NCBI GenBank assembly: GCA_001793095.1
Contig: MGHG01000009.1
Location: 285,849-321,954 of the forward strand
Source of the DNA: Candidatus Woesebacteria bacterium RIFCSPLOWO2_01_FULL_39_23
Lineage (GTDB): Bacteria > Patescibacteriota > Microgenomatia > UBA8517
Length of the DNA stretch: 36,106 nucleotides
Reading direction: 5' to 3'
Under the pieces are notes generated by a model that did no database searches, was not told where the DNA came from, and saw only the letters and a list, made by a program, of their open reading frames with translations. Positions 15,177 to 28,790 of the stretch are shown here, piece by piece (position 1 is the stretch's first letter; every line of letters starts with the position of its first letter). A program made the translations under genes and the position numbers.

Positions 15177-16895
15177 CTAATACTTGTAGATAATTGCTTC
15201 AGAGTTTTCAAATATCTTATTCGGATCAAGGCGTAAATCATTGTACTTTCTCTGCACACTCTTAATAACATATATATAATTAATATTCTTTTTCGCTAAT
15301 AGTTCATTCATGCTGTCGTAAGTCACGTCGGTAAAAAAACGTTCCACCTCAGTCTGTCTGGTCTGCCATGGATACCCTGTTATTTCCAGATTAACTTCAT
15401 CTTCAAGATATGTTACTTTACCTGAAAAGGCTGAAACGTAAGCTGTAGACTCATACAAATAAAGTGGTCTCGGGGGATTATTATTCGCTGCATCAGCCAA
15501 TTTTTTATTAAAAAACTGAGTTAAGACAACTCCATCTTGTTGCTGTGACAGGAAATCCAGAGCTTCCAGTTCTTCTCTTGAAACTTTCGCTGGAGGTCTG
15601 GCAGGTAAATAATTCCTCAGGGTTGCAATTAGTGTTGGAATAGTAAAAGTAAAAATTGTTATTACAACGAGACATCGAACAAAAGGTGAAGATTTTTCCT
15701 GCCATTTACCGATTGTTATACCTGCTAAAATTCCTAACAACACTTGGGCATAGTAAAAAAATTGGATAGTATTCCAGGATGTTCCTGATTGAATAAACAG
15801 CATCGGTATTATAATCCCAAGGAAAATAATTGTTAGCAGGAAAACATCGACGTACTGGTAGTTTTTAGGATTGAAACCGTTTCTTGCCAACCATAGGAAT
15901 CCAAAAATTCTCAGACCTAAGTTACCGACTAAAAATAGAATAAAAGCCGCAAGATATGCAATGGCGCCTTTTAGCCAAACACCTCCAAGCTTGTAATTAA
16001 TAAGCGCCTCGGCGAACCTCGGCCAATAAAATCTTGAAAGATCAGACATCATCGTCTCTAAAAACCAGAATGGTTTCCATATTATTGCGTTTTGAGAGCT
16101 GCCATTTATAGGTGAAAACAATAGAATTGATAAAATTAACACTCCCGCGAACACCTTCAAGAGCAGGAGGCTATTTTTTGTCAGCACATACCACATACTC
16201 GCAACAAATAATGCACCAAGAATTAAGATACCGGCATAAACTTTCACTTGGATAAGACTGCCGAAAAAGAAGGTCGCCAGCATTAAGTATTTTTTGCTAC
16301 GGTTTTCAACTCCCTTTAATAAGATTGTCAGTCCAATAAAAATAAATATTAGGGATAATGCAAAGGGGGGGTTAACCAGTGTGGAAATAGATTGTTGCGA
16401 CCAAAACATACTTTCTCCCTCAAATTGTCTATGCCTTAAGTAGGTTACTAACCACCCCAAACTTCCTGCAAAATAAGTAAAAAAAGTTGCCCAAAAAGCC
16501 TGGTACCTCGATTTACGCCATTCATAAACAAACAGATAAACTCCCACTCCAATCACTAAGGCAAATATCGGAGGAAGAATTTGAAAATACAAATTAACAA
16601 TCGGTATAAAGGTAATCTTATGGAGCGCTGCAAGAATTAAATCGAAACCAAGATGATAATTTTTAATGATCTCACCGGCAAACATAGGCATCTGCCATGA
16701 CCCTCTGGCCAAGCTCCCGGCGAGTGCAATATGCCAGATACCATCATGGCCATTCGGTCCCCAAAAACCAAGACCATTTGAACAACCTCCTCCCCAGCAA
16801 AGACCGCTTTTTACCATCGTTAAAGACCAAGCGACTGACCCAAGAATAATAAGAAAGAAATCCCGCAATTCCAATCTTTGTAGAAGCTTTTTCAT
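15177..16895 (-). CDS. Large multi-membrane protein, GT-C-like
   Basis: 572 residues with an N-terminal membrane helix (12-27), a first outer loop holding CWGGGC (33-38, two cysteines that could form a disulphide) and HDGIWH (50-55), then YHLGFDLILAA (80-90) and about a dozen further hydrophobic stretches, ending with a soluble segment of about 130 residues. The acidic-histidine loop after the first helix and the overall layout fit a GT-C transferase, but the standard DE motif is replaced by HDGxxH and no family is recognised with certainty. Its start forms an ATGA overlap with the flippase stop, so the two are translationally coupled. It may act on units the flippase delivers. Confidence 0.65.
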   Translation of the reverse strand: MKKLLQRLELRDFFLIILGSVAWSLTMVKSGLCWGGGCSNGLGFWGPNGHDGIWHIALAGSLARGSWQMPMFAGEIIKNYHLGFDLILAALHKITFIPIVNLYFQILPPIFALVIGVGVYLFVYEWRKSRYQAFWATFFTYFAGSLGWLVTYLRHRQFEGESMFWSQQSISTLVNPPFALSLIFIFIGLTILLKGVENRSKKYLMLATFFFGSLIQVKVYAGILILGALFVASMWYVLTKNSLLLLKVFAGVLILSILLFSPINGSSQNAIIWKPFWFLETMMSDLSRFYWPRFAEALINYKLGGVWLKGAIAYLAAFILFLVGNLGLRIFGFLWLARNGFNPKNYQYVDVFLLTIIFLGIIIPMLFIQSGTSWNTIQFFYYAQVLLGILAGITIGKWQEKSSPFVRCLVVITIFTFTIPTLIATLRNYLPARPPAKVSREELEALDFLSQQQDGVVLTQFFNKKLADAANNNPPRPLYLYESTAYVSAFSGKVTYLEDEVNLEITGYPWQTRQTEVERFFTDVTYDSMNELLAKKNINYIYVIKSVQRKYNDLRLDPNKIFENSEAIIYKY

Positions 16896-18382
16896 TTATT
16901 GGTAAATATGCCGCTAAAAACTCTTTTTGAGTCTTCTAAAAGAGCTATTCCGACAAGAACATACAGCGATAAGAAATAAATAAAACCACCCAAAAATACC
17001 ATGCCTGCAAAAAGAAAGATATTATAAAAAGGCAATAGATGCCTGACTACCAGAAGTACACCACCCATTACAAGAGAAGACTCAAGAGGTTTTATTACGG
17101 AATCTACTATTGACCACGGAAGAATTCTTTTAACCAAAATAAAGACAACAATAGAACTCGTTGCAATCACTGCATAAGCCAATGAAGCTCCGTTTATCCC
17201 ATAAACGATAGCGGCTGCAGGAACTAAAAGCCAGGTAAGAGATGTCCACATAACCATAAGTTTAAAAGTAGTCTTAATCTTTCCGATCGATGTTAAAAAA
17301 TTGGTTAATTGGGTCGTCGCTGCAGCCCAGAAAGAGCAAATCGATAACAGCATTAAAGGGATAAGTGCCGGTGCCCACTTTTGATATTTCGGTATAACAT
17401 CTAAAAGAGCCGGGAAAAGAATAACTAAACCGACAAGACTCGGAAAAACCAAGGCACAAATAAAAAATATTGACCTCGTAAGCGCCCGCGCCAACTCTTT
17501 AGTGTCGTCCTGCATCCTGGAAAATGCCGGAAAAGTTACTTTTGTCACATTATCCATAAAAAATCTCAGTGGATATTGAGCTAATTTCTGGGCAGTTCCT
17601 AAAATTCCCAGCCCAAACGCCCCGAGAATTTTACCCAGAACTATCGTCATACCATCATCTTTGATTGTTGCTAAAAAGTTATTAAGTTGATATGGTACTC
17701 CAAATCTAAGAAGGGAAGTTAACGAGCCTTTTGATATACCGAATTTAGGTTTCCAGGGTTGAAGAATATAAATAGCAATTACACCTACAACCCCCCGTAA
17801 TAATACCGCATAAGTAAAGCTTGTAATCCCGTACCCTTGCCAGGCAAAAAAGACTACGGAAACATTATAAACAAGATTTTCCAGAACCTGTGGGATGATA
17901 AATTTACCGAACTCAAGTTTCCGCTCGAGTATGATCGACGGAATATTTTTCAGCGATGCTAAGAAAAAGGATATATTGAGAGCATAAAGAAGTCGTATAC
18001 CATCCATCTCCAACGATTGAGTACGTCTGAGCACCGGACTGATCAGGAAAATAATTATCACAATCAAAACTACTAACATCTCCTGTACTGTAAATACTGT
18101 TGTAAAATCTTCCTCATTCGGCTTTTCTCTCTTCTGAATCAAGGCAGCACCCAACCCAATATCCGAAAAATATGATAGAAAATTTATGGTTGCTGAAACA
18201 AGAAGAAAAATGCCAAATTCCTTGGGATCAATAAATAACCAAAGCAACCCTTGAGCGATAAAAGTTATGAAGTTTAATATAAAAGTCCGACCCGTTAAAA
18301 CTGCTATACCCTTAACGGCACGGCTTTTTACAGTTTCAAGATTAATCTCAAAAGTAGGATCTACATGCGACTCTTCTTCCAC
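16892..18382 (-). CDS. Wzx/WzxC-type polysaccharide flippase (MOP superfamily)
   Basis: 496 residues from a GTG at 18382, since no ATG follows near the conserved start. The short charged N-terminus is followed by AVKGIAVLTGRTF and then about 12-14 membrane helices through the whole length, the layout of the oligosaccharide flippase family. GAALIQKREKPNEEDFTTVF after helix 2 is the typical WzxC/TuaB wording. These proteins move undecaprenyl-linked oligosaccharides across the membrane. It is the only flippase in the window and sits centrally among the transferases, overlapping the gene before it by 22 bases and the one after by four. It is the key export step for units built by the GT2 and GT4 enzymes. 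Confidence 0.88.
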   Translation of the reverse strand: MEEESHVDPTFEINLETVKSRAVKGIAVLTGRTFILNFITFIAQGLLWLFIDPKEFGIFLLVSATINFLSYFSDIGLGAALIQKREKPNEEDFTTVFTVQEMLVVLIVIIIFLISPVLRRTQSLEMDGIRLLYALNISFFLASLKNIPSIILERKLEFGKFIIPQVLENLVYNVSVVFFAWQGYGITSFTYAVLLRGVVGVIAIYILQPWKPKFGISKGSLTSLLRFGVPYQLNNFLATIKDDGMTIVLGKILGAFGLGILGTAQKLAQYPLRFFMDNVTKVTFPAFSRMQDDTKELARALTRSIFFICALVFPSLVGLVILFPALLDVIPKYQKWAPALIPLMLLSICSFWAAATTQLTNFLTSIGKIKTTFKLMVMWTSLTWLLVPAAAIVYGINGASLAYAVIATSSIVVFILVKRILPWSIVDSVIKPLESSLVMGGVLLVVRHLLPFYNIFLFAGMVFLGGFIYFLSLYVLVGIALLEDSKRVFSGIFTNK

Positions 18383-20145
18383 GAATTAAATTGTAGCACC
18401 GCACTAAGTAAAAGTAATGTCCAGGAGAATATAGATAATAAATTTGAAAATCTTCTAATGGAAGTATTTTCGAACTTTGCGTATATTGAATGTTCTCCCG
18501 CCGCTAGATTAAACCACATTCTGCCCAGCTTGTCGTTTTTCGGAATAAATTTATCTACCTCCTGACCGTCAACAAAAACTTTCCACCCGGGAAAATCAAA
18601 TACATTAATCCTGATTGTTGCCTCCGAAGCGTTAGAATTAAATTTAATCCAATTTGTACCCTCAACAATATTCGAAAACTCTCCGGTTGCATCAATAAAT
18701 TCAACTGGCTCCATTCTTGCAGACACCGGTGCCATCTCTACGGTTAACGGCAGATAATCAATAATCCCTCCACCCTGCTGAAGTTCCCATGCAGCACCCG
18801 AAAACTTCTCTGAATCAGTTAGACGCCCCATTCTACCGTGTTCCGGTTTAAAATAGTTCCAACTGACAATGACAAGTAATAAAATCAATAAACTTGTAAA
18901 TACCATTCTAAAAGGAGCGTATGCCAAGTTGAGGAGGCTCTTTTTCGAATGAAACAAAGATGGTAATAATCCAGCCACGAACGAAAAAGCGAAAATTGTT
19001 ATCGTCAAAAAACGCCAAGGAAATTGTACATAGCCCAGCACCGGAATTAATTTGTAGACAAATATTGATCGTGTGTGAGTCATAAATGCCGCGAACCAAC
19101 CAACAAGTAACAAGTAACAAGTAACAAGTAACAATCTGTTTCTCTTTATCTTCACTCCGATATCACCAATTTCCTTTATCTCCCTTATTACCCTAAATAT
19201 TATAAATATTCCAACCAGAAGAGATGCTACCCAGAGAACATATCCAATCTGAAAAGACATGCCGTCGTTTGGCCCCCAAATTGAACCTCCATATCCCCAA
19301 AATCTCGAAAATAGAAGTTGTTTCAAACTTACAAAATGAGCCGTGAAATCGAAATAGCCCTGAAGCTGCTCTCTAACGTGGGTATATTTATTTTCAGCTA
19401 TTGCAGGAAGCGTAAAAAAGGCGGCCAGACCCACTGCCCATAATCCTGATATGATAAGATGATAGACTCTCCTCCACTTTCCTTCCATAGAAAGGTGGAT
19501 CATTATCCAAACAAGAAAAAATGGCGTAAATATTAAGACCATTAGATTATGGGAAATAAATAATGCAAAGTATGAAAGTGTCAAACATATTAAGTTAGTT
19601 CTTAATTTTTCTTCCTTTTCAGTTACCAATTTGTAAGAATACAAAAAGATTAACGGGAACCAAACCAATGCCCAACTTTCATTCATCGCACCTCTGACAT
19701 ATACATCAACTGCGTGGTACGGTGCCCAAATATAAAAAATCGCCGAGACCACTCCTCCGAAACGTCCGAAAAACTTCCTAGAGAATAAATACATTGTGAC
19801 TCCCGACAGAATAATCGACAAAGCAAAATTCAACTTTACGGTTGTTACAAACGAAAAGCCTAAAATTCGGAATACCTCTCCTGCCAAATACGGTAACGGC
19901 GGGTAAAAATTAAAAAGCGGGAAACCGTAACCGAAACCCATATCCGGAACCCAGCGACAAGGAATTTGGGTATCTATGAAGCATTTTTCCATTTCAAGCT
20001 GTCTCATCATCTGAAGATCATCATGCATATTAAAATAACCCGGCTGGAAAATAAGCGTTCTTGCCGCCAATATTGCAAATATAATTACCACCAAAAGGGG
20101 AAAGGCTTTTACCACTCTTCTAAGCCTATTAAACATATTTTTCAA
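18361..20145 (-). CDS. PTPS-related/YfhO-like membrane protein, probable GT-C glycosyltransferase
   Basis: 594 residues. The start is a TTG at 20145: it overlaps the upstream stop as TTGA and has GGAG seven bases ahead, whereas the first ATG (20136) lacks a spaced SD. After one helix come MHDDLQMMRQLE and the GYGFPLFNFYPPLPY segment, then about eleven helices and a beta-rich C-terminal domain of about 150 residues (FPGWKVFVDGQEV). This is the pattern of the family named 6-pyruvoyl-tetrahydropterin synthase-related, which is close to YfhO and GT-C enzymes and is not a pterin enzyme. A perfect 7-bp array lies within codons about 338-348 (LLLVTCYLLLV in a membrane helix), so one unit gained or lost would shift the frame. 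Confidence 0.78.
   Translation of the reverse strand: MKNMFNRLRRVVKAFPLLVVIIFAILAARTLIFQPGYFNMHDDLQMMRQLEMEKCFIDTQIPCRWVPDMGFGYGFPLFNFYPPLPYLAGEVFRILGFSFVTTVKLNFALSIILSGVTMYLFSRKFFGRFGGVVSAIFYIWAPYHAVDVYVRGAMNESWALVWFPLIFLYSYKLVTEKEEKLRTNLICLTLSYFALFISHNLMVLIFTPFFLVWIMIHLSMEGKWRRVYHLIISGLWAVGLAAFFTLPAIAENKYTHVREQLQGYFDFTAHFVSLKQLLFSRFWGYGGSIWGPNDGMSFQIGYVLWVASLLVGIFIIFRVIREIKEIGDIGVKIKRNRLLLVTCYLLLVGWFAAFMTHTRSIFVYKLIPVLGYVQFPWRFLTITIFAFSFVAGLLPSLFHSKKSLLNLAYAPFRMVFTSLLILLLVIVSWNYFKPEHGRMGRLTDSEKFSGAAWELQQGGGIIDYLPLTVEMAPVSARMEPVEFIDATGEFSNIVEGTNWIKFNSNASEATIRINVFDFPGWKVFVDGQEVDKFIPKNDKLGRMWFNLAAGEHSIYAKFENTSIRRFSNLLSIFSWTLLLLSAVLQFNSWKKSRM
19102..19134. repeat. Perfect 7-bp tandem repeat inside a membrane glycosyltransferase gene
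   Basis: AACAAGT is repeated four times without error and followed by AACAA (33 bp, 4.7 units). It lies in the coding region of the gene at 18361-20145. Seven is not a multiple of three, so a single unit change shifts the frame. A three-unit change keeps it. Confidence 0.9.
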
Positions 20146-21698
20146 TTTACATCTCCGACTTCAAACAAATACAGAACTTCCTGAGGGCCTTTTAAATTAT
20201 AGTCAGAAGTTCCTGTTGTCCTAAAAGCTTTTGGGTAAGTTGCAAGAAGATTTAAGTTCAGGTCATTATAATCTGCACTTAAGCGTGAATTATTAATCAC
20301 CAAAAACGTCTTGTTTCCGGCTTTTTTCGATTCCACCAAACTTTTCGGTAATGCACTTAAGTTTATGCCTACACCAAGAACTATTATCTTCGGCAGATCA
20401 TTTAAATATATTTGAAGACCGTCGGGGAGAGTTCCGAAATAACCTTCTGTTCCGACCACAATTTGTTGGTTAGGATTTTGCAAGTATTGATTACGGATAT
20501 CCATTGCTACTTCCTTAATTCCATAGCCTGATGTCCATTCTTCCAAGTAACCCGTTCTCTCGGATGTGGGCATCGGAGCTTTTTGTATATTTGTCAAAAG
20601 AAGGAAATCGATCCATAAGGCATGGACTACCAAAATTATCGCTAATGTCTTAAATATTTTTTTATATGCAGCACTAGTTAGAACACTTGCACCAAGTATT
20701 GTAAGAGTCGGAATTATGTAAAGAATATATCTTGCAGTAAAAACTTTGGCATACTCAGCAGAAATTACAAGAGGCACGAAACTCCAAAAGCAAAGCAAAA
20801 GAGTTTCCTTTTTAAATTTTGTGAAATTCAAAATCACCCCAAATATGATAAAGAATATAAATACACTCGGTCCCCAAATCCAAAAATATTCAAACGACCG
20901 GTTTAAAAACGGCAGTAACGGATCAAATGGTCTTTCTAATAAATGAAACACCGGATAAACATAATCATTGTTCCGCAAAGTCAGCATGTGGAAGTTTGGA
21001 CCAAGCCTTTGTATGTTATACATAAAATATGCAAGTAAATAACTTACTGCCAATAAACCCGATGCTTGGATCAAATCCTTAATTCTTACACCTTTTTTAG
21101 AATGCTCAAGAAAGACTAAAGCACTTGGCAATAAAAGTGCAAAGTATAATCCCGGGGATTTTGTAAGTAACGCGCCACCCAGCGCAAAACCTGCGAGCAT
21201 TGCATAATCAAGTCTTTTGTACTTAACCGAAAGCAAACCAAAAATTAATGTCCATATACCGAACATTGACAGCAGTGCATCAGCCAGCGCCATGGAATCA
21301 AAGAATACAGCAAAAGGCATTACAGCATAGATTAATCCCGCAAAAAGCGAAATATTCAAAGAATTAAAAAGTATGTATGAGAGAATTATTACTCCGGTCA
21401 AAGACATCACGCCAGAAAATACCGACACCAATCTGCCAGCAATTAACGGGTCGCCGAACAGCTTGAGGAAAGGAATTATGCTCCAAATAAAAAGGGGTTG
21501 TTTCCCGTCAGATAGGGAAATAAAGCGCAAGCTGGGTTCTGCCTTTGCAACTTGTGCCCATCGGATATATATTGCTTCGTCTCCGAAAACTGGCTGGTTA
21601 TATAACACCACTCTTAAAAAACGAAGTAGTAATGCACTAGCCAAAACACCGGCTGATAATATTATGACTTTCTTCCACTCGCTGCGAATTTTATCCAT
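20142..21698 (-). CDS. GT-C (PMT_2/GT39) membrane glycosyltransferase
   Basis: 518 residues. The helix at about 11-28 leads into VFGDEAIYIRWAQ (37-49), the classic PMT_2 acidic motif, and GKQPLFIW (65-72), the second-loop motif (usually KPPL in ArnT-type enzymes). About ten more helices and a soluble C-terminus of about 130 residues follow. This is the most typical PMT_2 protein of the window, and its expected reaction is transfer of a sugar from polyprenyl phosphate to lipid, glycan or protein on the outer face. It overlaps the next gene by four bases and follows the ALG5-like GT2 gene by 15 bases. That transferase may supply its donor. Confidence 0.85.
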   Translation of the reverse strand: MDKIRSEWKKVIILSAGVLASALLLRFLRVVLYNQPVFGDEAIYIRWAQVAKAEPSLRFISLSDGKQPLFIWSIIPFLKLFGDPLIAGRLVSVFSGVMSLTGVIILSYILFNSLNISLFAGLIYAVMPFAVFFDSMALADALLSMFGIWTLIFGLLSVKYKRLDYAMLAGFALGGALLTKSPGLYFALLLPSALVFLEHSKKGVRIKDLIQASGLLAVSYLLAYFMYNIQRLGPNFHMLTLRNNDYVYPVFHLLERPFDPLLPFLNRSFEYFWIWGPSVFIFFIIFGVILNFTKFKKETLLLCFWSFVPLVISAEYAKVFTARYILYIIPTLTILGASVLTSAAYKKIFKTLAIILVVHALWIDFLLLTNIQKAPMPTSERTGYLEEWTSGYGIKEVAMDIRNQYLQNPNQQIVVGTEGYFGTLPDGLQIYLNDLPKIIVLGVGINLSALPKSLVESKKAGNKTFLVINNSRLSADYNDLNLNLLATYPKAFRTTGTSDYNLKGPQEVLYLFEVGDVN

Positions 21699-22478: not shown

Positions 22479-22490
22479 ATCTAAATTTCT

Positions 22491-22518
22491 TATCACTTAT
22501 CTCGTATCACTTATTTCT
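22491..22518. repeat. Degenerate 7-bp tandem array upstream of the ALG5-like gene
   Basis: Plus-strand units TATCACT, TATCTCG, TATCACT and TATTTCT follow one another in the 48-bp gap between a GT-C stop and the ALG5-like ATG. The last unit extends over the alternative GTG start. A change in copy number would alter spacing in the leader rather than the protein. Confidence 0.6.
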
Positions 22519-24015: not shown

Positions 24016-25557
24016 TTATTGAATTCTTTTTCTTCTTTGTACGGTAATACCGCCATACTTTCCTTCATCCTGTACTACACCTATTTTTTCCTGTCGTAAT
24101 AACCATGTCTCCAGGCGTTCAGGATTCGGAGGATCTGATTCATAGAGCGTATATAGGAGGGGGGTTTGATAATCAACTTTTCCGCACATACTTTCCCCAC
24201 ATATTTTAGTACCCTGCCACAAAATTAAATAATCATAAGCGTATGGAATAACGGGCGGGACATAAATATCAACGTTAAAATTACCTTTACCGGCAGCATT
24301 ATTAAAAATCCAGTCAACCGCCTTGACTTGATTAGCAAAGCTAATATCGGTCTGTCCTTGCAGCTGGTCTGTTAACCGATTTTTTATTAATATACCATTG
24401 GCATTAAGAAACGTTACAAAAAATATAATGACTGATATTTTACCTATATTTGTTCTCCACAGTTCAGCCATACCTATCGAGAATATCGCGACAAAGGGTA
24501 AATAATAACCGCTCATATAATAGTCGTAAAGATGTCCGAAGTTACCCTGGAAAAAGGTTACAAAAAAAACCGGCGTTAGAAGAAAAATCATAAAAAGCCC
24601 GGTTAATCCTTTTTTCAAAAACCCTCTTCTGACAACGAGAGAGGAAAATACCAAAATAATGAAAGTTAAGGATAATAAACTGCCCTTTGGATATAGTTTG
24701 CTGCTGATTACCGTCCAAAAATATTTAATTTTTTCTTCAAGAATGAATCCACTAATGCCCCTAAAAGCCTTTTCTTCAAAAAATAGTTTTTGTAAATTAC
24801 TGAACAATATATTGTCATGCCGAAAATTAAAAATAATTTGCGGGAGAAGGGTTGCGAAAAATAAAGACAGTGCAATTAATAATGTTCTACTTGGTAAACT
24901 TTTCTTTTGCCATATAATAAACACCACCATCACGGGCAGATAAAAAATCGCACTGGCAGATTCGAATTGTAGGGACAGTCCAAGCATTAACAAGGCCAAC
25001 ACCCACCATGTACTATCTACCTTCTTACTTTTTCCTCTAACAATTTTCCACAAAGCAAGTAAAAACAAAACGCTGGTTAAAAATATCGGATTTGGGTTAG
25101 AGAGCCACTGGTTAACTATAATAATATAGTACGAGCAGGAAGCTATAATAACCGCAATTAATCCGGCACCCCTACTGTGCATGTCGTAAACGGTTACAAA
25201 AAGCATAAATATTGCAAAGACCGATAAAAGTGCTAAAAAAACGACCGGATAAACTGGGTTTCCTCCACCTATTAAATACAAGGGGGCTATAAGGTAATAG
25301 TACATAGGTCCGAGAAATATACCGGCCAGACCCGTTACCGGCCCGATCAAAAAGAATTTTCCTTCGTGCCAGAGTTTCCAAATAATAAGGGCGTCTCTAC
25401 CCTGGTCATACCAAAATCCTAATAAATCCCCAACTCGATATACACGGACAAATAAAGCAAGAAAAAGGATAGAAGTAAGTAGTAGGTAGTAAGCAGTATG
25501 TGGTTGTATTTCGTGTTTCCACAACTTTTTAATGAAAATTTCGATACTCTTAATCAT
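24016..25557 (-). CDS. GT-C-like multi-membrane glycosyltransferase (DQGRDA/YYY paralogue)
   Basis: 513 residues. Helix 1 (about 24-39) is followed by FWYDQGRDALII (48-59), IGPVTGLAGIFLG (71-83) and PMYYYLIAPLYL (84-95), near identical in pattern to the protein at 9910. About ten helices and a C-terminal domain follow, which ends in the same style as the 9910 protein (IGVVQ..KYGGITVQRR). Codons about 19-28 (PHTAYYLLLT), at the edge of helix 1, are written by a degenerate 7-bp array. It ends four bases before the start of its tandem neighbour and starts 11 bases after the Nudix gene. No functionally characterised relative is recognised. Confidence 0.77.
   Translation of the reverse strand: MIKSIEIFIKKLWKHEIQPHTAYYLLLTSILFLALFVRVYRVGDLLGFWYDQGRDALIIWKLWHEGKFFLIGPVTGLAGIFLGPMYYYLIAPLYLIGGGNPVYPVVFLALLSVFAIFMLFVTVYDMHSRGAGLIAVIIASCSYYIIIVNQWLSNPNPIFLTSVLFLLALWKIVRGKSKKVDSTWWVLALLMLGLSLQFESASAIFYLPVMVVFIIWQKKSLPSRTLLIALSLFFATLLPQIIFNFRHDNILFSNLQKLFFEEKAFRGISGFILEEKIKYFWTVISSKLYPKGSLLSLTFIILVFSSLVVRRGFLKKGLTGLFMIFLLTPVFFVTFFQGNFGHLYDYYMSGYYLPFVAIFSIGMAELWRTNIGKISVIIFFVTFLNANGILIKNRLTDQLQGQTDISFANQVKAVDWIFNNAAGKGNFNVDIYVPPVIPYAYDYLILWQGTKICGESMCGKVDYQTPLLYTLYESDPPNPERLETWLLRQEKIGVVQDEGKYGGITVQRRKRIQ
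25474..25501. repeat. Degenerate 7-bp tandem array inside a GT-C gene
   Basis: Plus-strand units AGTAAGT, AGTAGGT, AGTAAGC and AGTATGT are contiguous near the 5' end of the gene at 24016-25557. Because they are near the start codon, an indel of one unit would cut the protein very early. Confidence 0.6.
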
Positions 25558-27101: not shown

Positions 27102-28790
27102 TTATTTAGAATGCACCAGTTTGTATACAATGACGCCTACTGTATCCCATTGACCCTCAACTTTACTCCAACCGAAATTGGCAACTTCAGTTTTAGAATT
27201 ATGGGTAGGATCGCATTTTACCTCCGGCAATTCGCAAACAACAAACAGTTGACTTTTTACTGTTTCGGGTTTTTGAGCATCGATGTCCATCACCTTAGCG
27301 CCATGTTTCTCCAGAAAATATTGATATCCGTCCTCATAATTTTGCTGAGCTATAACTGCAAGGTTAAACTCCTGACCTCCTGCTTTCTCATCAATTAATT
27401 TTGCAACCTCGATCGCTCTCCACATTTGAGCATTGGGCGGATATCTTAGAGGGTTATTCAATAAATTAACAACAACCAATAAACAAAAGCCGGACGTCAC
27501 AAGGATTTTTCCATCATAGCCAAATTTATCCCAGATTTTTTGTGATATCGCGCCAACTAATATAAATAGTGCTGGAAAAATAAAACCGAAATAATGATCG
27601 TATATATGTTGTTTATAAAGGCTTAAACCGACAATGCCGAAGAAAATCCAAATAGATACAAGGACAACACCGCTTAAGAAATTTTTTTTACCGGCGAAAA
27701 CCTGACCGAGCTTCTTATTATTAAATGCCAAATAAAATACAGTCGAAATTAGAAGCGTAAAGGCAGTTATTCTACCGGCAAGTTCGTTTCCGCCGGCAAC
27801 CAACCGAGCAACGTAGTCGTCTTTAAATATCGGCCAAAGATTGGGGACTGACTTCCAGGGTTTTATCGAAATAGTAGTTTCCCTCTGACTGAAAAAAGTT
27901 CTTATCGCAGAAAAATTTCGCCATCCATGTCGGGCATCAAATACTATTAATGGTGACATGAGGAGTAAAAACAAACCTAAACCAATTAGTGAATATTTTA
28001 GAAAATCTCGACTTGGTGATAGGTGATAGGTGATAGGTGATGGGTTAAGAGAAAGTAAAGTCAAAATCCAGAAAATACAGATTACAGGAGCCAATAATAG
28101 TCCGAGGTAATGAGATTGAAGTACAAACGCAAAAGCAATTCCCATGACTACCAGCCACTTAAAATTAAAATATTTCCACGTCTGCCATATTGCATAAATA
28201 CAAAGTAAAGAAAAGAAAGGCATAATATTAGGGTTCCAAGATGACCTGGAGTAATTAATGACTACCGGGGAAATTGCGTACAAACCAGCAGCAATAAGAG
28301 CTCCATTATGAACACTATGTTCACCTCTCCGAGTCAGAGACTCTCCAGAGTCAGCGACTTGCAAGGTCTCACCTTTAAAGGTAAAGAGTTCATGGGTAAC
28401 AAACCAGACAAAAAAAATAGTTACTACTCCAAGTAAAGCTATCATTACGGCTGGTCCGACCGGCGAAAAGTTGGCTAATAATAACGCCGGTGCTATCATG
28501 TAGTAATAAAGCGGCCCTAAATACATATTGCCGATCGAAGTACCGGGACCCACAAGTATCGGGTCGAAATTTACAAGAAGACGTCTCACAACAATCGCGT
28601 CCCTACCTTCATCTCCCAAAAATGTCATGTACTCACTTATCCTGTAAAGTCGAAAAAATGCCCCCACAAGAAGTATTAGTCCAAGAAGCATCGCTTCCTT
28701 CTTATTATTTTTTATCCACCCCATCATACTTACTGCATAATTCATAGAACTTGTTTCAAAACTCGCCTTGCAAGCTCGTTTTGAGAGCAT
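27102..28790 (-). CDS. GT-C-like multi-membrane glycosyltransferase (DEGRDA/YYY paralogue) with repeat-derived segments
   Basis: 562 residues from the ATG at 28790. M16 (28745) is an alternative and may be the native start, as residues 1-15 come from a quasi-palindromic repeat. Helix 1 (about 34-47) leads to FLGDEGRDAI (57-66) and YLGPLYYYMIAPALL (90-104), the signature shared with the proteins at 9910, 22527 and 24016. Around ten more helices follow. Two oddities stand out: residues about 140-160 (ETLQVADSGESLTRRGEHS) are a polar insert written by palindromic DNA, and residues about 250-259 (NPSPITYHLS) are written by a perfect 7-bp array. Both lie in loops between helices. The predicted activity is outer-face sugar transfer from a lipid donor. 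Confidence 0.78.
   Translation of the reverse strand: MLSKRACKASFETSSMNYAVSMMGWIKNNKKEAMLLGLILLVGAFFRLYRISEYMTFLGDEGRDAIVVRRLLVNFDPILVGPGTSIGNMYLGPLYYYMIAPALLLANFSPVGPAVMIALLGVVTIFFVWFVTHELFTFKGETLQVADSGESLTRRGEHSVHNGALIAAGLYAISPVVINYSRSSWNPNIMPFFSLLCIYAIWQTWKYFNFKWLVVMGIAFAFVLQSHYLGLLLAPVICIFWILTLLSLNPSPITYHLSPSRDFLKYSLIGLGLFLLLMSPLIVFDARHGWRNFSAIRTFFSQRETTISIKPWKSVPNLWPIFKDDYVARLVAGGNELAGRITAFTLLISTVFYLAFNNKKLGQVFAGKKNFLSGVVLVSIWIFFGIVGLSLYKQHIYDHYFGFIFPALFILVGAISQKIWDKFGYDGKILVTSGFCLLVVVNLLNNPLRYPPNAQMWRAIEVAKLIDEKAGGQEFNLAVIAQQNYEDGYQYFLEKHGAKVMDIDAQKPETVKSQLFVVCELPEVKCDPTHNSKTEVANFGWSKVEGQWDTVGVIVYKLVHSK
28015..28041. repeat. Perfect 7-bp tandem repeat inside a GT-C gene
   Basis: GGTGAT is followed by three perfect AGGTGAT units (27 bp, 3.9 units) within the gene at 27102-28790. 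Gain or loss of one unit would shift the frame about 250 codons from the start, cutting off more than half the protein. Confidence 0.85.
28331..28382. repeat. Palindromic REP-like segment inside coding sequence
   Basis: Within 52 bp lie GAGTC-AGA-GACTC (28331-28343), GACTCT-CC-AGAGTC (28339-28352), a partial palindrome around GACTTGCAAGGTC, and ACCTTTAAAGGT (28371-28382). CCGAGTCAGA at its left side also occurs in the palindromes at 6652-6661, and CGACTTGCAA also near 6706-6715. It is translated in frame as a polar loop of the GT-C protein. Confidence 0.5.

Follow-up and report, generated by a model that had tools for sequence, protein, structure and literature searches.

Introduction

Is a perfect seven-base repeat in the middle of a membrane-protein gene of Candidatus Woesebacteria an on/off switch maintained by selection, or is it one outcome of a mutation process that keeps generating such repeats at places where they are tolerated? 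The question is raised by positions 19102-19134 of the window, by which we mean the whole stretch of 36,106 nucleotides analysed here, which forms the end of contig C9. The first-pass annotation had interpreted this tract as a candidate phase-variation switch. Patescibacteria are thought to live fixed to other cells, a way of life in which surface glycans are important. In the open-access literature that was searched, phase variation in Patescibacteria was hardly described, and tandem repeats of Woesebacteria were absent.

The heptanucleotide array and its host gene

Positions 19102-19134 read AACAAGTAACAAGTAACAAGTAACAAGTAACAA, that is, four perfect AACAAGT units followed by five further bases (AACAA), or (AACAAGT)4.71; the coding strand carries TTGTTAC units, and the coordinates of this and all other arrays are given without strand. 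Tandem Repeats Finder scored the array at 100% matches and found no stronger tandem array in the window, in agreement with the composition first annotated. The genome (1.126 Mb, 99% complete) has no second AACAAGT array. Because 33 bp is much less than an ordinary short read, collapse of the array during assembly is unlikely. In frame, the array encodes LLLVTCYLLLV, residues 338-348 of 594, and AlphaFold places these residues in helix 337-354, of which the array makes up the N-terminal two thirds; both the peptide and the mid-gene position in a membrane helix had been read correctly at first pass.

The host gene (18361-20145, minus strand; the actual start is possibly an ATG three codons in) encodes a polytopic membrane protein of 594 residues, for which Pfam and AlphaFold suggest a PTPS-related/YfhO-like glycosyltransferase of the GT-C type. 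Its match to Pfam PF10131 (PTPS_related; E 5e-6, 25.6 bits) falls just under the curated cut-off of 26.4, and among 25 homologues searched at E<=0.001, PF10131 was found in 13 and YfhO (PF09586) in 4. The AlphaFold model has a mean pLDDT of 85, with confidence blocks of about 78-96 in helix 337-354, and its nearest structures are AftA, OST STT3, AglB and PglB (E 7e-5 to 1e-3, with a TM-score of only about 0.4). On this modelling, the protein is predicted to be a glycosyltransferase of GT-C fold. A Wzx/MOP-type polysaccharide flippase gene (16892-18382, minus strand) lies directly downstream, a PMT_2 GT-C glycosyltransferase gene (20142-21698, minus strand) lies directly upstream with a 4-base overlap, and the glycan locus also contains a GT2 glycosyltransferase; given this fold and these neighbours, the host gene likely acts in surface-glycan assembly. 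An imperfect heptamer array (22489-22514) is also present near the 5' end of the GT2 gene. The nearest relatives compared were Candidatus Woesebacteria and similar Microgenomates, with host-protein identity of 60% at best.

Gain or loss of units has clear consequences for the reading frame. Computed products at -1, -2, +1 and +2 units are 352, 407, 414 and 359 residues long, respectively, and lose the rear portion of the membrane domain and the entire C-terminal beta domain, whereas changes of -3 and +3 units keep the frame and give 587 and 601 residues. The annotated rule that one unit shifts the frame and three units preserve it is thus borne out by computation.

Period-7 arrays in the genome and its relatives

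The array belongs to a class. Our sample of the own genome covered 368 kb, about a third of the total, and whole-genome pattern searches were added. Among unit lengths of 1-13 in this sample, perfect arrays of at least 20 bp occur for length 7 only, and perfect arrays with at least 13 extra matches number five at period 7 and none at periods 1-6 or 8-13. Period 14, a multiple of 7, also stands out among short units. Shuffled sequence yields essentially no period-7 arrays of at least 13 extra matches, and Markov controls (400 kb) contained zero such perfect runs; the tract at 19102-19134 has 26. The five units of the own genome (AACAAGT, GGTGATA, AGTTATT, TTGAAAA and TGGAAAT) are unrelated to one another. 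Relatives show the same preference for period 7, both within and between genes. A 50-kb stretch of Escherichia coli, a small and GC-rich yardstick and thus a weak control, had no period-7 run of at least 11.

Several other features of these genomes were observed. Homopolymer runs of at least 10 are depleted in the own-genome sample (none, vs about 30 expected), period-16 runs are frequent as well (7 in the 368 kb), and a stretch of about 6 kb in one relative (L122 5550-11736, genome G058) is packed with about 10 intergenic heptamer arrays. The MutS_V domain (PF00488) has no match in the own genome (G000) and is found in one of 19 genomes (the own genome and 18 relatives), vs 11 of 14 controls. 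Seven-base loops are poorly handled by MutS-type repair anyway, and so the scarcity of MutS_V is regarded as background only.

Recurrence of arrays at the same helix

To follow the site across the family, we used 125 distinct homologous open reading frames and scored as an array any perfect heptamer run with at least 10 extra matches. Eleven arrays were found, eight of them within profile columns 309-330, a span of about 20 codons that corresponds to the helix of the window's array. All are in frame, and their units differ (TTGTTAC, TTTTATG, ACTTTTT, ACTACAT, TTTTTTC, TTCAAAT, TTCTGGT and GTCAATT). This diversity makes a function tied to one unit sequence, such as a binding site or a mobile element, unlikely. 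At the same threshold, codon permutation predicts 0.75 arrays in these columns, vs the eight observed, and other periods from 4 to 12 contribute 0-1.

It was also considered whether the helix is struck merely through a composition rich in seeds for slippage. This explanation was rejected: in array-free homologues, just 7-13% of chance period-7 seeds fall at columns 309-330. When all homologues were permuted, the site yielded 0.75 and the rest of the protein 0.35, but the input included the array-bearing sequences. Few parts of the protein vary in sequence as much as this helix, although its length is nearly invariant, and other variable stretches of the host protein show no comparable concentration of arrays, so that tolerance and seeds explain the concentration only partly. 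Under a null combining variability with chance seeds, a rough hand estimate gives P of about 0.005-0.01, which hints at additional selection.

OFF alleles were sought among the 125 homologues, about eight of which carry arrays at the site, and none was found; the incomplete matches reflect contig ends or larger proteins, with no break at the array site.

Gene classes that carry the arrays

We surveyed 1.06 Mb of genes from the own genome and its relatives. Nine intragenic arrays as strong as the five of the own-genome sample were found, eight of them in genes of the GT-C/O-antigen-ligase type (PTPS/YfhO-like, PMT_2 and Wzy_C), which make up 14% of the coding sequence (P about 1e-6); with the window left out, six of seven remain in this class (P about 5e-5). 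By contrast, none lay in the remaining polytopic membrane genes, 150 kb in all (P 0.004 in an approximate Fisher test). Some of the sampled stretches had been picked near glycan loci, and the comparison was therefore made per base of gene class. Four array genes were moved out of the class of other membrane genes by Pfam, and members of the same families were then recruited regardless of arrays, as a guard against bias. The ninth array (AGGACAA x4.3; L069 1483-1512, relative G017) lies within a class I tRNA-synthetase gene, an essential gene, and hence heptamer arrays are not all switches. Between genes, arrays are at least as dense (79 per Mb, although about five of the seven lie in one stretch), and intragenic arrays are not longer than intergenic ones.

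Within the window, a second heptamer array (GGTGATA x3.9; 28015-28041, imperfect to 28045) encodes ITYHLSP in an inter-helix loop of a gene for a 562-residue PMT_2/Agl23-like GT-C glycosyltransferase (27102-28790, minus strand). The length of this loop varies among homologues, two of which (L140 and L153) carry heptamer-like tracts of other units at the matching loop. The equal length of homologues, which speaks against a net insertion of the helix array at 19102-19134, does not apply to the loop array. An imperfect heptamer array at 25474-25498 lies near codons 19-28 of a further PMT_2 gene (24016-25557, minus strand).

Preservation and turnover between related species

Two relatives of one genus, G008 and G061, allow the fate of individual arrays to be followed. 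Their orthologues of one array-bearing homologue of the host gene carry an ACTTTTT array of 34 bp with identical unit and unit number; 207 of 548 codons differ (38%), and the array with its border provides the only 12-codon windows free of differences. The array has been either homogenised or preserved. No difference in unit number was observed at the helix site, for which this is the one same-genus pair that could be compared, and the fixed number could mean that the arrays are rather stable.

Elsewhere in the same two genomes, units have changed. Just past the start codon, PMT_2 orthologues carry AATTNNN units in G008 and AACAGTC units in G061, both in frame. A Wzy_C gene of the O-antigen-ligase type has four heptamer sites (L138 16023-18149 in G008; L205 in G061), and at three of the four sites the heptamer-like tracts have different units in the two species. 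In these sequences, position and period are retained and the units exchanged. Replacement is likewise seen between genes, which points to turnover as a property of the mutation process.

Comparison with known repeat systems

Intragenic heptamers that govern surface factors have been described in other bacteria. neuO of E. coli K1 carries at its 5' end the heptanucleotide AAGACTC in 3-53 copies, most often 20; its switching has been measured, and 66% of genomes are OFF (PMC13001214). The present array resembles it as a seven-base array in the coding sequence of a probable surface-glycan enzyme, in which the number of units modulo three sets the frame, and differs in lying mid-gene with 4.7 copies and with units that vary among homologues, where neuO has a single unit. 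In Haemophilus influenzae, a frame-shifting intragenic (AATTTTG)14 was reported in hmw1a of one strain (PMC2651432), and heptanucleotide arrays of hmw1A and hmw2A are found mostly in promoters, with 13-38 units in the cited genomes (PMC2651432, PMC8262952). There, too, heptanucleotide slippage governs a surface factor, but that factor is a protein adhesin, whereas the host gene here probably encodes a glycan enzyme. The argument that such repeats act as switches elsewhere, on which the first-pass annotation drew, has precedents in neuO and hmw1a, although 4.7 units is short beside the usual neuO array.

Heptameric repeats are over-represented in Xanthomonas, Nostoc and other bacteria, with polymerase slippage proposed as the cause (PMC4692102), and TAACTGA repeats occur in Beggiatoaceae (PMC4679880). 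Those systems share with ours the prominence of period 7 and positions partly conserved between related species; they differ in having one dominant unit and mainly intergenic sites, whereas units in the Woesebacteria-like genomes are unrelated and glycan genes are struck. In the Patescibacteria (CPR) themselves, Gracilibacterium BD1-5 has a hypervariable PTD repeat gene for an extracellular protein (PMC6851277). This is likewise a repeat locus in a surface-related gene, but its nine-base repeat stays in frame and provides no frame switch.

Slippage, selection and their rivals

The account we favour, with slightly better than even confidence, is that the array at 19102-19134 is a heptanucleotide microsatellite generated by slippage and turned over at a tolerated site, which may serve as a potential phase switch. 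In Woesebacteria-like Patescibacteria, period-7 arrays would keep arising, with changing unit sequence, at a few sequence-tolerant positions: between genes, in N-terminal tails, in loops, and in one variable GT-C transmembrane helix. Polymerase slippage, which we infer from the tandem form, the period and the turnover, would add or remove whole 7-base units. In the host gene, an overall gain or loss of one or two units would then shift the frame and truncate the enzyme near its middle, a potentially reversible off-switch. Since the allele observed is functional and as long as its repeat-free homologues, most cells of the population are presumably ON. It counts against this slippage account that hydrophobic coding alone does not explain why other membrane proteins lack arrays. 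The strongest competitor, to which we give a substantial but lesser chance, is a contingency locus like neuO in E. coli K1, in which selection would maintain a hypermutable helix because some cells then lack the enzyme and display another surface glycan. Consistent with it are the setting in a surface-glycan locus, the truncation by one- and two-unit changes, the clustering in glycan membrane genes and not in other membrane genes, the repeated striking of one helix with varied units (which fits selection on repetitiveness rather than on sequence), the perfect array kept between G008 and G061 despite their codon divergence, and the arrays that, as in neuO, stand immediately past a start codon (PMC13001214). 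However, every array-bearing homologue is ON, very different from the proportion of OFF genomes in neuO (PMC13001214); the unit number is fixed in G008/G061; the arrays have only 3-5 units; arrays of this kind are also found outside genes and within the tRNA-synthetase gene, where an OFF state would make no sense; and those inside genes are no longer than those outside. The first proposal of a switch therefore holds in so far as the array is non-random, frame-shifting and located in a likely surface-glycan gene, and is weakened by the uniformly ON alleles and the constant unit number. On/off switching through 19102-19134 is plausible from the sequence. An extension to the whole genome, in which period-7 arrays are selected at fixed positions of GT-C/O-antigen-ligase genes, with replaceable units and reversible surface variation as the outcome, is a tentative idea to which we attach a little less weight again.

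The remaining explanations fare considerably worse. Steps of three units might tune the enzyme by altering the helix by seven residues without a frameshift, as the in-frame three-unit products would permit and as the second array, in its loop of varying length, might suggest; yet the helix is near-constant in length across homologues, array-bearing ones included, so that the tolerance of three-unit variants annotated earlier is doubtful and length tuning improbable. For the same site, a net insertion of the array into the helix was ruled out, as homologues without the repeat are equally long there. Finally, a T-rich hydrophobic helix might by chance have been written in repeating codons, and the residues LLLVxxxLLLV are indeed in part common to relatives, L004 and L014 among them. 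Against this, permutations of codons that preserve the protein gave a mean of 0.15 runs with at least 13 extra matches at the site, vs 5 observed over the 125 homologues, and other short periods lack comparable arrays. Chance or low-complexity coding was rejected as the origin on these permutations and the Markov shuffles, and it is the least probable of the readings.

Implications

The over-representation of heptamers in bacteria and the proposal of polymerase slippage are already known (PMC4692102). New here are the bacterial group in which the arrays occur, their clustering in GT-C genes, and the way in which place and period are conserved but the unit is not. Arrays that keep their position and period but not their unit would allow the mutation process to be told apart from selection, and this class of arrays would bear on why seven is a favoured slippage length in bacteria.
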